A stretch of DNA of 64,000 nucleotides, taken from assembly GCA_004297985.1 (NCBI GenBank), contig SCRA01000055.1, forward strand, positions 1 to 64,000, read 5' to 3'. Under the pieces are notes generated by a model that did no database searches, was not told the DNA's origin, and saw nothing but the letters and a program-made list of their open reading frames with translations. Shown here in pieces: positions 19,820 through 24,054 of the stretch. Each line of letters begins with the position of its first letter. Positions within the stretch are counted from its first letter, which is position 1. The position numbers and the translations under genes were made by a program. The DNA is from a bacterium (lineage in GTDB: Bacteria > Vulcanimicrobiota > Vulcanimicrobiia > Vulcanimicrobiales > SCRA01).

Positions 19820-21469
19820 CTACCGGCGGCGCTTGGTGGGCACGGCCTTTTTGGCGGGTGCGGCCTTTTTGGCGGGCACGGCCTTTTTGGCGGGTGCGGC
19901 CTTCTTGGCGGGCGCGGCCCTTTTGGCGGGCGCGGCCTTTTTGGCGGGCGCGGCCTTTTTGGCGGGCGCGGCCTTTTTGGCGGGCGCGGCCTTTTTGGCG
20001 GGCGCGGCCTTCTTGGCGGGAGCGGCCTTCTTGGCGGGCGCGGCCTTCTTGGCGGGCGCGGCCTTCTTGGCGGGCGCGGCCTTCTTGACGGGGGTGGCCT
20101 TCTTGACGGGCACGGCCTTCTTGACGGGGGCGGCCTTCTTGACGGGCACGGCCTTCTTGACGGGCACGGTCTTCTTGGCGGGGGCGGCCTGCTTGGCCGG
20201 GGCCGTCTTCTTTGCCGGCGTCTCCTTCGGCGGTGCAGCCGATCTCTTTGGCGCCTTGGCGGGCCGCTCAGCGGCTGGTTTGGCGCGCTCCTTCCCTGTC
20301 GGGCGCGTGGGCTTGGTGGCCGCGGGGCGCTCGGGCGTCGTGCGGACCGCACGCGTCACGCGGCGACGTGTGCGGCGCCCCTCCTCGCGGGCACCGGCGG
20401 CAGCCTCCGGCTCTTCCGGCAGGCCGAGCTCCTTGCGGCCTAGACCGCTGATGCTCGAGCCGGGAAGCGGGACCACGGGTTGCACGGTCTGGGCGATCAG
20501 CTCCTCGGTAGCACGTAAGGCGACACGTGCGAGGCGCCCGGCGACGGGAAAGACCAGCTCGTTGATCTCCAGCTCATCGAGCATCGCAAGCACGCGATCG
20601 AAGGCAGCGCCTTGGTGGATGGGGCTGTGCGCGTCGGAGCCGACGGCGATGCCCACGTCGGCCGCCTTGGCCTTGCGCAACAGCCGTTTGTTGGCTGCGA
20701 GCCAAGCCTCGACGAGTTCGGGATTGTCGACATCTCGATAGAGCACGCGCGTATTGAACTCGATCGCCATACCACGCTCTTTGCAAACGGCGATGACACG
20801 GTCCTCATACTCCTCGAGCTTTGCCTGCGAGGGCCAGAAGCCGAACTTCCCAGGCACGAAGAAGTGACCTAAAATGTTGCCCGGCAGCTTCTCGGCAGCC
20901 TCGATGACGCTGGTGACATAGAGTTCCCACGTCTGCTCGATCCCTACGTGGAGATAGAGATCCTTGAACTCCGGATTGTCGAACGGCCACATCCACCCTT
21001 CGCCGTGCTCGGGGTGCGTGATGGGCAGGAAGTGCACGCTGCGGATCAGCCCGTCGGGGCGCATGGCTTCAACGATGTTCTGGGCGTCGGGACGATTGCG
21101 TGGATCGTTATCGGCTTCGACCCCGATGGAAAAACGGAAGCCCCGGCGCAGAGCCGCTCCGACCGCCTCCGCCACGGGATACGAGACGTTCGCCGTCTCC
21201 GCGGCGCCGTAGTGGTCGCCGGCGAAGGCCAGCTTTAACGCCCGCCGGCAGAGGTTGACTGCCGCCGGATCCTCGAATGTGAGGTAGTTCATGTGGTCCG
21301 CAACCATCAAGAATCGCGGCGAGCCACGCCGCGAGGCGTGGTAGAACCACTGGAAGAGCATCCGGGCCGTATAGGCGATCGGACGCTCCTCTGTATATGG
21401 TCGGTGTTCGCCCTTCGCGTGCCCGTGCGAGTCAGGGATTGCGGCGAGTCTAGGATCTGCCGTCGTCAC
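19820..21469 (-). CDS. PHP-domain protein with a histone-H1-like C-terminal tail
   Basis: This is a 549-residue protein. Residues ~12-335 form a PHP (polymerase and histidinol phosphatase) metal-dependent phosphoesterase-like domain, with HGHAKGEH, VADHMNYL, FSIGVEAD, ITHPEHGEG, AIEFNTR and VGSDAHSP as likely metal-binding segments. From ~375 on it becomes Pro/Arg/Lys-rich, and the last ~120 residues are near-perfect repeats of K-K-A-A-P-A ending in TKRRR, like the DNA-binding tail of histone H1. It starts with GTG 21469. A phosphatase joined to a polycationic tail suggests action on nucleic acid, polyphosphate or another polyanion, but the substrate is not known. Confidence 0.8.
   Translation of the reverse strand: MTTADPRLAAIPDSHGHAKGEHRPYTEERPIAYTARMLFQWFYHASRRGSPRFLMVADHMNYLTFEDPAAVNLCRRALKLAFAGDHYGAAETANVSYPVAEAVGAALRRGFRFSIGVEADNDPRNRPDAQNIVEAMRPDGLIRSVHFLPITHPEHGEGWMWPFDNPEFKDLYLHVGIEQTWELYVTSVIEAAEKLPGNILGHFFVPGKFGFWPSQAKLEEYEDRVIAVCKERGMAIEFNTRVLYRDVDNPELVEAWLAANKRLLRKAKAADVGIAVGSDAHSPIHQGAAFDRVLAMLDELEINELVFPVAGRLARVALRATEELIAQTVQPVVPLPGSSISGLGRKELGLPEEPEAAAGAREEGRRTRRRVTRAVRTTPERPAATKPTRPTGKERAKPAAERPAKAPKRSAAPPKETPAKKTAPAKQAAPAKKTVPVKKAVPVKKAAPVKKAVPVKKATPVKKAAPAKKAAPAKKAAPAKKAAPAKKAAPAKKAAPAKKAAPAKKAAPAKKAAPAKRAAPAKKAAPAKKAVPAKKAAPAKKAVPTKRRR
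19824..20220 (-). repeat. 18-bp tandem repeat encoding KKAAPA hexapeptides
   Basis: About twenty 18-bp units (coding strand reads roughly GCC AAA AAG GCC GCG CCC) make up the 3' end of the PHP gene. Units nearest the stop are almost identical; farther ones vary (V for A, T for A, AAG for AAA). Such repeats change copy number readily by slippage. Confidence 0.88.
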
Positions 21470-22233: not shown

Positions 22234-22263
22234 AAAAAAAGAAGCCGGCCACGCGGGGCCGGC
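22234..22263 (-). terminator. Intrinsic terminator between the sigma/ogt operon and pcp
   Basis: On the minus strand a 7-bp GC stem (22263-22257 with 22250-22244, loop of 6) is followed by TTCTTTTTTT. It is a classic Rho-independent terminator placed directly before pcp, so it may be the end of the upstream operon or an attenuator controlling pcp. Confidence 0.8.
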
Positions 22264-22429: not shown

Positions 22430-23200
22430 TCAGGAGGTTCGCACGTCCGCGGGCGTCTCCTCTTGCCGATAGCCTTCGAGCTCCAGGAGACGGCGCTTCA
22501 GCTCGACGCCGTAGACGTAGCGGTGGAGGCGCCCCTTGCAATCGATCACGCGGTGACAGGGGATCAGCAGCGGGATGGGATTGTTGGCCAGTGCCTGGCC
22601 GACTGCGCGTGCCGCGTTGGGCCTGCCGACTTCGCGCGCCAGCCAGCCGTAGGAACGGACTTCGCCTCTGGGGATCCGTGCCGCCGCTCCGAAGACCTCA
22701 CGCTCGAAGTCGGTGAGGTCGCTGAGATCGATCACGGCGTCGGCAGTTTGCTCGCCGGAGAAGAAGAGCGCGATCGCCTCGCGCACCCAGGCCGGCGGCT
22801 CGCCGTGCGCGGGGAGAGCCGAGGTGTGGAGGCGGTGTTCGAGCGCTGCGGAGACATCGTGCATCTCCTCGCCGCGATCGACGCGGAGATAGACGATCCC
22901 GGCATCGCGGTAGCCCACGAACAGCCGTCCGATCGGCGCCTCCAGCACCGTTACGAACACGGTGCGGTGTACGTGCACCTGCTCGCATTGCTCGCGGATA
23001 TGCGCCATGATGCGGGGTACGAGCGACTGGGGCGGCGGAGCCACGGGCAGGCATGAGAGACAGTACGCGACGCCTTCGAACTCTGCGTAGGCCGCCTGAC
23101 AGTCGGTGCATGCGCGCAGATGGACGAGGACGTCCTCGCGGCGCGGCTCAGCACCGGAGCGCATGTCGTCCCAGCACGCGACGACCTCACGGCAACGCAT
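22430..23200 (-). CDS. Fusion of anti-sigma zinc finger and O6-alkylguanine-DNA methyltransferase
   Basis: This protein has 256 residues. The first ~60 form a ZAS/zf-HC2 anti-sigma domain: Cys3 and Cys9, then His27-x3-Cys31-x2-Cys34, followed by a Cys-containing helix region (VAYCLSCLP) and a short linker. Residues ~77-250 are a complete Ogt/MGMT: an N-terminal strand region (LEAPIGRLFVGY), DFEREVFGAAARIPRGEVRSYGWLA, NAARAVGQALANNPIPLLIPCHRV with the alkyl-acceptor Cys215, then YVYGVELKRRLLELE. The start lies 14 bases inside the ECF sigma gene, so both are made together, as is usual for sigma/anti-sigma pairs. Known function: Ogt moves alkyl groups from guanine to its own cysteine, irreversibly. 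Inference: alkylation could change the anti-sigma module and release the sigma factor. Confidence 0.88.
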   Translation of the reverse strand: MRCREVVACWDDMRSGAEPRREDVLVHLRACTDCQAAYAEFEGVAYCLSCLPVAPPPQSLVPRIMAHIREQCEQVHVHRTVFVTVLEAPIGRLFVGYRDAGIVYLRVDRGEEMHDVSAALEHRLHTSALPAHGEPPAWVREAIALFFSGEQTADAVIDLSDLTDFEREVFGAAARIPRGEVRSYGWLAREVGRPNAARAVGQALANNPIPLLIPCHRVIDCKGRLHRYVYGVELKRRLLELEGYRQEETPADVRTS

Positions 23201-23849
23201 GGGCGGCGTCTCCCTCGTGGACCAGGCGGCCGACTTGCGGTCCTAGCACGCGGCGCAGGATGCGCACCGCACGGTGGACGTGGCTTTTAACCGTCCCTAT
23301 CGGCTGTTGGAGGATCTCCGCGATCTCCGGATGCGAGCGCCCCTCGATGAAGCGCAGCGTTGCCGCGGCGCGCAGGTGGACGGGGAGGTCGAGGAGCGCG
23401 CGCTCCACCAGCGCCATGTCAGCGGAGCGCTCCACGACTTGCTCGGGGGTCTCCGAAGGGAGATTGTTCTGATGCAGGAGCGCATCCGGATCGGCCAGCG
23501 CGTCGAGCGCGACGTTTGTCGGTTTCTTCGAACGCAAGCGGTTGCGCGTGACGTTCAGCGTGATGGTATAGAGCCAAGGCTGCAGCTTGAGCTCGGCTCG
23601 ATGCTCGGCCGGCATCTTGGCGAGCGCTCGATAGGCGCGCACGAAGGCGTCCTGTACGATCTCCTCGGCGTCCTCTCGGTTGCCCGTCATACGCAAGGCG
23701 AACCCGAAGAGGCGCCGTTCGTAATCCTCGACGATGCGCTCGAAGCGCTCAGCGCTGGGGATGGCCCTCCGCAGTATCTCGGGGCGCGCGACGTTCGCCA
23801 CCAGGATCTCCTCTAGAGCCGGTGGGGCCTCCAGCAATAGTGCGGTCAT
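23187..23849 (-). CDS. ECF-type RNA polymerase sigma factor
   Basis: This 220-residue sigma-70 family member has only regions 2 and 4. Region 2 is at residues ~36-100: FERIVEDYERRLFGFALRMTG, then NREDAEEIVQDAFVRAYRAL and a WLYTITLNVTRNRLR segment. Region 4 is at ~150-205: LLDLPVHLRAAATLRF, then a helix-turn-helix IAEILQQPIGTVKSHVHRAVRIL. The ~35-residue N-terminal extension has no known role. The stop lies inside the start of the anti-sigma/Ogt gene. Such sigma factors commonly drive their own operon; no promoter could be fixed confidently in the 280 bases upstream. Confidence 0.93.
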   Translation of the reverse strand: MTALLLEAPPALEEILVANVARPEILRRAIPSAERFERIVEDYERRLFGFALRMTGNREDAEEIVQDAFVRAYRALAKMPAEHRAELKLQPWLYTITLNVTRNRLRSKKPTNVALDALADPDALLHQNNLPSETPEQVVERSADMALVERALLDLPVHLRAAATLRFIEGRSHPEIAEILQQPIGTVKSHVHRAVRILRRVLGPQVGRLVHEGDAAHALP

Positions 23850-24054
23850 CGTTCATCCACAACCCCCACGGCGTCGCTGGAGTTTCGCCCGGACGCGACA
23901 GGGCCCCCTTCGGCGGCGCCGAACTTGCCTGTCATGGCTCTGCCTACCGATCCGCTCCCCCACCGTCGCGCCCCGCGGGCTCTCGGCAGGGGTGCCCCGC
24001 ATCCAGGAGTGGTGCGCGTGTGAGCACCGGTGAGCGGAGAGGCCAATCGATGTA

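Follow-up and report, generated by a model that had tools for sequence, protein, structure and literature searches.

A DNA alkyltransferase fused to an anti-sigma domain forms a candidate self-activating alkylation-response switch in Candidatus Eremiobacterota

We found that an ECF sigma factor gene overlaps a gene whose product combines an anti-sigma domain with a complete O6-alkylguanine-DNA alkyltransferase (Ogt) in a 64,000-nucleotide stretch of DNA (the window) from a member of Candidatus Eremiobacterota. In our judgment it is reasonably probable that the two genes form a self-activating switch for the response to alkylation damage, in which the Ogt protein is both a repair enzyme and the inhibitor of the sigma factor.

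Organization of the two-gene unit

The genes of the unit are located as follows.

23187 to 23849, minus strand: ECF sigma factor gene, 220 amino acids, with regions 2 and 4 (PF04542 and PF08281)
22430 to 23200, minus strand: gene for the fusion of a ZAS-type anti-sigma domain with Ogt (ZAS-Ogt), 256 amino acids (domain and profile matches, orthologues)
23187 to 23200, minus strand: 14-base overlap of the sigma and fusion genes (read from the sequence)

An earlier note on this DNA had described both open reading frames, their minus-strand orientation, and the 14-base overlap, and a rereading of the sequence returned the same arrangement. The overlap likely couples translation of the two genes. 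The sigma-to-fusion offset among orthologues was +14, +11, -2, or -5 bases. The sigma protein matched Sigma70_r2 (PF04542; E value, 2.8e-15) and Sigma70_r4_2 (PF08281; 3.1e-12) in Pfam, and its top NCBIfam model by E value was SigW (3.8e-33), at a score under the equivalog cutoff. In the fusion protein PF01035 was the sole significant Pfam domain, with no Ada zinc domain and no AraC helix-turn-helix. The gene downstream of the unit encodes a pyroglutamyl peptidase and is not a repair gene. Elsewhere in the window (19820 to 21469, minus strand) is a gene for a PHP-domain protein whose long C-terminal tail, made up of AAPAKK-type repeats of lysine, alanine, and proline, resembles a histone-H1-type tail.

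The alkyltransferase domain

The C-terminal part of the fusion protein has the following features.

22460 to 22963, minus strand: O6-alkylguanine-DNA alkyltransferase, N- and C-terminal domains, residues 80 to 247 (PF01035, 1SFE, Foldseek)
22556 to 22558, minus strand: codon of the acceptor Cys215, in PCHRV (Cys in 79 of 79 distinct orthologues)

The Ogt DNA-binding domain was recognized with an E value of 4.9e-30 (PF01035), and a profile match to the C-terminal part of Escherichia coli Ada (1SFE; 7.6e-27) spanned both domains. Foldseek returned Mycobacterium tuberculosis OGT (8e-13) and 1SFE (9.5e-11). All hallmarks of Ogt proteins were present, namely the PCHR acceptor cysteine, the Arg finger, the Asn hinge, the catalytic Tyr, and the Glu. 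The catalytic set was nearly invariant, with PCHRV, Y184, N207, and E242 in 79/79 orthologues and R198 in 78/79. Judged by its sequence, the fused domain is a complete alkyltransferase with intact catalytic residues, as the earlier note had proposed when it pointed to a full Ogt domain with acceptor Cys215. The invariant acceptor cysteine rules out an inactive alkyltransferase-like (ATL) domain. A stand-alone Ogt (L003) is encoded separately in this genome, so that repair need not depend on the fused copy alone. Locus L004 (G000:C24, 1495 to 2352, minus strand) encodes an Ogt-like protein in which PAHRV replaces PCHRV, as in ATL damage-recognition proteins.

The anti-sigma domain

The N-terminal part of the fusion protein comprises a single feature.

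22973 to 23200, minus strand: class I anti-sigma domain, residues 1 to 76 (RsiW profile match, zf-HC2 in relatives, AF2 helices)

The window sequence by itself scored under the curated anti-sigma cutoffs; for example, its match to the NCBIfam 'antisigma' model NF052375 (7.4e-6) was subthreshold at 26 bits against a cutoff of 100. A profile of 31 relatives matched the solved structure of RsiW (5WUQ; 2.3e-6) over residues 12 to 72, helix 4 included, and 17 of the 31 matched zf-HC2 individually. These matches identify a class I zinc anti-sigma domain at the N terminus, where a ZAS domain had been proposed. A first AF2 model was weak at the N terminus, and a second, better one, with an N-terminal pLDDT of about 59 to 75, placed helices at residues 4 to 14, 21 to 30, 32 to 40, and 60 to 76. 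In a Foldseek search with the whole model, significant scores came from Ogt structures only, without a separate anti-sigma match.

The motif His27-x3-Cys31-x2-Cys34 and the PCHRV motif around Cys215 were both present, as the earlier note had reported. Its three zinc ligands were correct, but it had overlooked a fourth, Cys3. The resulting CHCC motif (C3, H27, C31, and C34) was invariant in 79/79 distinct orthologues, and its residues correspond to the RsiW zinc ligands C3, H30, C34, and C37 (PMC5358783). Two extra cysteines, C47 and C50, varied among the 79. In the helix-1 motif W10-D11-x2-R14, residues W10, D11, and R14 were invariant in the same 79 sequences. The invariant Asp fits the published contact of RseA D11 between helix 1 and sigma-4 (PMC7406223), the two positions being presumably equivalent. 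In a mirror-tree comparison of the sigma factor with the anti-sigma part, distance correlations of 0.6 to 0.8 were obtained for all segments, which is within the background expected from shared phylogeny. By analogy with RsiW, we infer that the N terminus binds and inhibits the sigma factor.

Conservation within the order

The earlier note had suggested a search for ZAS-Ogt proteins across genomes and a check on whether an ECF sigma gene always precedes them. The fusion was found order-wide, in 79 distinct orthologues. A survey of the phylum listed at least 103 genomes of the window's order (Candidatus Eremiobacterota), of which 95 had the fusion; the eight listed genomes that lacked it were 61 to 88% complete. 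No ZAS-Ogt fusion was found in other orders of the phylum in this survey at an E value of 1e-40. When the window's own genome and 60 relatives were considered, 60 of the 61 had a fusion match, including all 53 with a completeness of 90% or more and a contamination of 5% or less. The named fusion-bearing relatives are Candidatus Eremiobacterota metagenome-assembled genomes. An ECF gene was directly upstream of the fusion in every orthologous locus with a long enough contig, so that the predicted gene order held wherever the DNA sufficed to see it. The argument in the earlier note that the fusion is neither a chance joining nor an assembly artifact was borne out by the retention of C3, H27, C31, C34, and C215 in all 79 orthologues. 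Both explanations are ruled out by the presence of the fusion in 95 genomes of the order and in 79 distinct sequences.

Promoter, terminator, and regulon

The unit is flanked by two putative transcription signals.

23861 to 23886, minus strand: ECF-type promoter, ending 11 bases upstream of the sigma ATG
22244 to 22263, minus strand: intrinsic-terminator-like hairpin followed by TTCTTTTTTT, closing the unit (strongest stem plus T-run)

The candidate promoter consists of a -35 element GAAAC (23882 to 23886), a 16-base spacer, and a -10 element GGGTT (23861 to 23865). The relaxed pattern GAAACYN{14,17}GGKGTT had a single match in the 3.19-Mb genome, at this unit, and a reversed-pattern control also had one match. 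Of 75 distinct regions upstream of orthologues, 57 contained GAAAC-spacer-GG[TG]; a control window located farther upstream had it in 2 of 73, and shuffled sequences averaged 0.7. A search for a sigma-70-type promoter near the sigma gene found none. The element looks like an ECF promoter that is read by the unit's own sigma factor. Because an ECF-type promoter precedes the sigma gene and its relaxed pattern is unique in the genome, the unit probably activates itself. Three terminator-like sites were found in the 2 kb scanned (shuffle mean, 1.1; standard deviation, 1.3).

When 61 genomes were scanned with strict promoter patterns for a wider regulon, the matches close to start codons were nearly all the sigma unit itself, and in the window's own genome the unit was the sole match to the relaxed pattern. 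With no clear regulon beyond the unit in the strict scans, a wider repair regulon is unsupported. A more degenerate regulon is possible. One relative contains, in addition to the full-length unit, a truncated ZAS copy (G040:C22:17760-18089; promoter in L152) that has the same GTGAAACC promoter and comprises residues 1 to 111 within a 145-amino-acid frame.

Related units in the same genome and in other phyla

The genome that contains the window has a second unit (L002; G000:C36, 981 to 3068), comprised of an ECF gene, a gene for Ogt with an Ada-type zinc domain [Ogt-Ada(Zn)], and an Oxygenase-NA gene. The Ada zinc domain is C-terminal (PF02805; 5.9e-12), and the Oxygenase-NA product (PF09859; 3.9e-75) is predicted to be a DNA-repair oxygenase. 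A TGTAAC-N15-GGTGTT-like promoter lies ahead of the sigma start. Within the order, an ECF gene adjoined 10/10 Ogt-Ada(Zn) genes, a few of which had an Ada zinc motif that was unmatched by regular expression, versus 0/10 genes for classical stand-alone Ogt or AraC-type Ada.

The family reaches at least three phyla beyond the window's own. Of the 297 Acidobacteriota genomes sampled, 11 encoded ZAS-Ogt-Ada(Zn) proteins; each of these was behind an ECF gene and had the zinc motif, which read HIxxC in two of them. Short Ogt-Ada(Zn) proteins were found in 18 of 199 Actinobacteriota genomes, always behind an ECF gene (18/18), and in 57 of 301 Chloroflexota genomes, with an ECF gene ahead in 27 of the 28 examined. 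In a pooled nonredundant family set (n = 88), PCHR was present in every protein, the four Ada(Zn) cysteines in 82, and an adjacent ECF gene in 80. The exceptions were mostly of three types, namely stand-alone Ogt, AraC-type Ada, and fusion to sigma itself; L115 and L251 fall outside these types. Many relatives have TGAAAC or TGCAAC and then GTGTT just ahead of the sigma start. The AraC domain was absent from all ECF-linked relatives scanned with Pfam. On a plasmid of Streptomyces sp. NBC_00212 (L124, 3350 to 4696), sigma region 4, Ogt, and Ada(Zn) are joined in one polypeptide in which Pfam did not detect sigma region 2. A stand-alone Ogt gene follows L124. The Ada-type zinc domain of the relatives is probably a second sensor, for methylphosphotriesters.

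In a tree of sigma factors the ZAS-linked sigmas formed one group (support, 100/100) that joined the sigmas of the short Ogt-Ada(Zn) units, L002 included (98/82), and the other ECFs of this genome lay apart from both. Three Ogt-type sensors (L110, L112, and L142) are paired with ECF sigmas from another lineage, suggesting that sensor and sigma were brought together, or were rewired, on more than one occasion. The zinc bundle is absent from the short proteins, which have a segment that aligns with the anti-sigma linker and helix 4 (hhalign, 67%; E value, 5e-5). Helix 4 lies over the face of sigma-2 that binds polymerase (PMC7406223). Most relatives with sister sigmas are missing the zinc bundle and retain helix 4 and a catalytically intact Ogt. 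Since these two parts are common to all forms, Ogt, and not the zinc site, is indicated as the input. The helix-4 segment before Ogt may be the oldest signaling part, and the zinc bundle may have been added later or as an alternative.

Proposed mechanism and alternatives

In the undamaged cell the anti-sigma domain would wrap the sigma factor as RsiW wraps SigW; RsiW-type domains keep sigma off (PMC5358783). By homology, helices 1 to 3 would lie on region sigma-4 and helix 4 on region sigma-2. On removing the alkyl group from an O6-alkylguanine, Ogt would become irreversibly alkylated at Cys215. The alkylated domain is expected to be unstable and prone to degradation, as has been established for other transferases: alkylation destabilizes them, leading to degradation (PMC10779285), and methylation of SsOGT lowered its melting temperature from 80 to 60°C and was followed by degradation in vivo (PMC4605297). 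The Ogt domain starts only a few residues past anti-sigma helix 4, and its loss or distortion would release or destroy the anti-sigma domain and free the sigma factor. Free sigma could then transcribe from its own promoter, supplying new sigma and a replacement for the consumed enzyme, until unalkylated enzyme recaptured the sigma factor and the loop stopped. Because the enzyme works only once, a self-replacing loop is sensible.

An unlikely alternative is that the protein is a redox-sensing anti-sigma factor in which the CHCC zinc center answers thiol oxidation or electrophiles, as in RsrA, with Ogt as a co-regulated passenger. The invariance of the CHCC ligands (79/79) is consistent with this, as is the frequent association of cytoplasmic class I anti-sigma factors with redox sensing (PMC7406223), about 72% of the soluble class I factors having the zinc motif (PMC7406223). 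However, RsiW, the nearest relative in sequence, has CHCC yet is not under redox control (PMC5358783), and thus redox sensing cannot be deduced from the motif alone. C47 and C50 vary among the orthologues, and the input shared with most sister-sigma relatives, which keep helix 4 and Ogt without a zinc bundle, is Ogt.

An Ogt input might also work without covalent alkylation, if binding of the domain to alkylated or distorted DNA pulled the anti-sigma domain off sigma. Cysteine-less alkyltransferase-like proteins are generally known to signal damage through binding (PMC10779285), and Y184, R198, and N207, which serve in DNA binding, are conserved. We nevertheless consider such occupancy sensing very improbable, because a binding-only sensor needs neither Cys215, which was found in 79/79 orthologues, nor the PCHR motif, which was found in 88/88 other family proteins. 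We give equally little credence to positive control, in which the sensor would be a sigma partner or DNA-bound coactivator that becomes active once alkylated, as Ada does, with no anti-sigma factor involved. Relatives carry Ada(Zn), the domain whose methylation turns E. coli Ada into an activator, and sigma-r4, Ogt, and Ada(Zn) occur naturally in one polypeptide. Yet the window protein lacks Ada(Zn) and its class I anti-sigma domain is complete, and the short relatives keep the helix-4 segment, a blocker of the binding of sigma-2 to RNA polymerase (PMC7406223).

The preferred reading, release of sigma upon alkylation of Ogt, can be put more strictly: the repair enzyme doubles as the anti-sigma factor, with every repair of an O6-alkylguanine using up a single inhibitor and setting a single sigma free, and this wiring evolved independently of Ada and extends over at least four phyla. 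We see an even chance that this holds in full. If it does, the cell counts lesions stoichiometrically while replacing spent enzyme, and O6-alkylguanine sensing is explained in phyla in which DNA repair is poorly studied. The unit would also be a compact sensor that O6-benzylguanine (SNAP-tag chemistry) could trigger without DNA damage.

Comparison with known systems

The closest entry among classified ECF groups is ECF122, which has 6-O-methylguanine DNA methyltransferase neighbors and is listed without an anti-sigma factor and with its mechanism uncharacterized (PMC8999054). In both cases an ECF sigma gene adjoins an O6-methylguanine DNA methyltransferase gene; the description of ECF122 does not mention an anti-sigma domain within the methyltransferase, where it lies here (PMC8999054). 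ECF122 and the sigma/ZAS-Ogt unit may belong to the same family, and the mechanism proposed here, if true, would then apply to an ECF group currently listed without an anti-sigma factor. The fusion had been called unfamiliar in the earlier note. This stands insofar as no description of an anti-sigma/DNA alkyltransferase fusion was found in the openly available literature, and a 2023 review of alkyltransferases (PMC10779285) mentions neither sigma nor anti-sigma factors; however, the association of ECF122 with a methyltransferase was already on record (PMC8999054).

SigW promoters have a TGAAAC-type -35 element, and the unit is similar in this respect. It further resembles Bacillus subtilis SigW-RsiW (5WUQ/5WUR; PMC5358783) in its CHCC ligands and helix 4, with RsiW the best anti-sigma match and SigW the best-scoring model for the sigma factor. 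In contrast to RsiW, a membrane protein that is released by proteolysis, the attached domain here is a cytosolic suicide DNA-repair enzyme. A cytosolic zinc anti-sigma domain is also found in Streptomyces coelicolor RsrA (CHCC) and Rhodobacter sphaeroides ChrR (HHCC). RsrA responds to thiol oxidation at its zinc site and ChrR to singlet oxygen, and neither is fused to a repair enzyme as the domain is here.

Bacterial alkylation responses are taught through Ada. As in E. coli Ada, suicidal acceptance of an alkyl group would be tied to the protein's own transcription, and the likeness to Ada drawn in the earlier note is stronger than it could know, because the relatives from other phyla have an Ada-type zinc domain in addition. 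Whereas E. coli Ada is an AraC-type DNA-binding activator, release of an ECF sigma from a fused anti-sigma domain is proposed here, and the window protein has neither Ada(Zn) nor an AraC domain. If the proposal is right, a suicide enzyme that inhibits a dedicated sigma factor provides a second wiring of the alkylation response, unrelated to Ada. We class the unit as an ECF/anti-sigma system with a putative DNA-repair sensor and not as a member of the Ada family.
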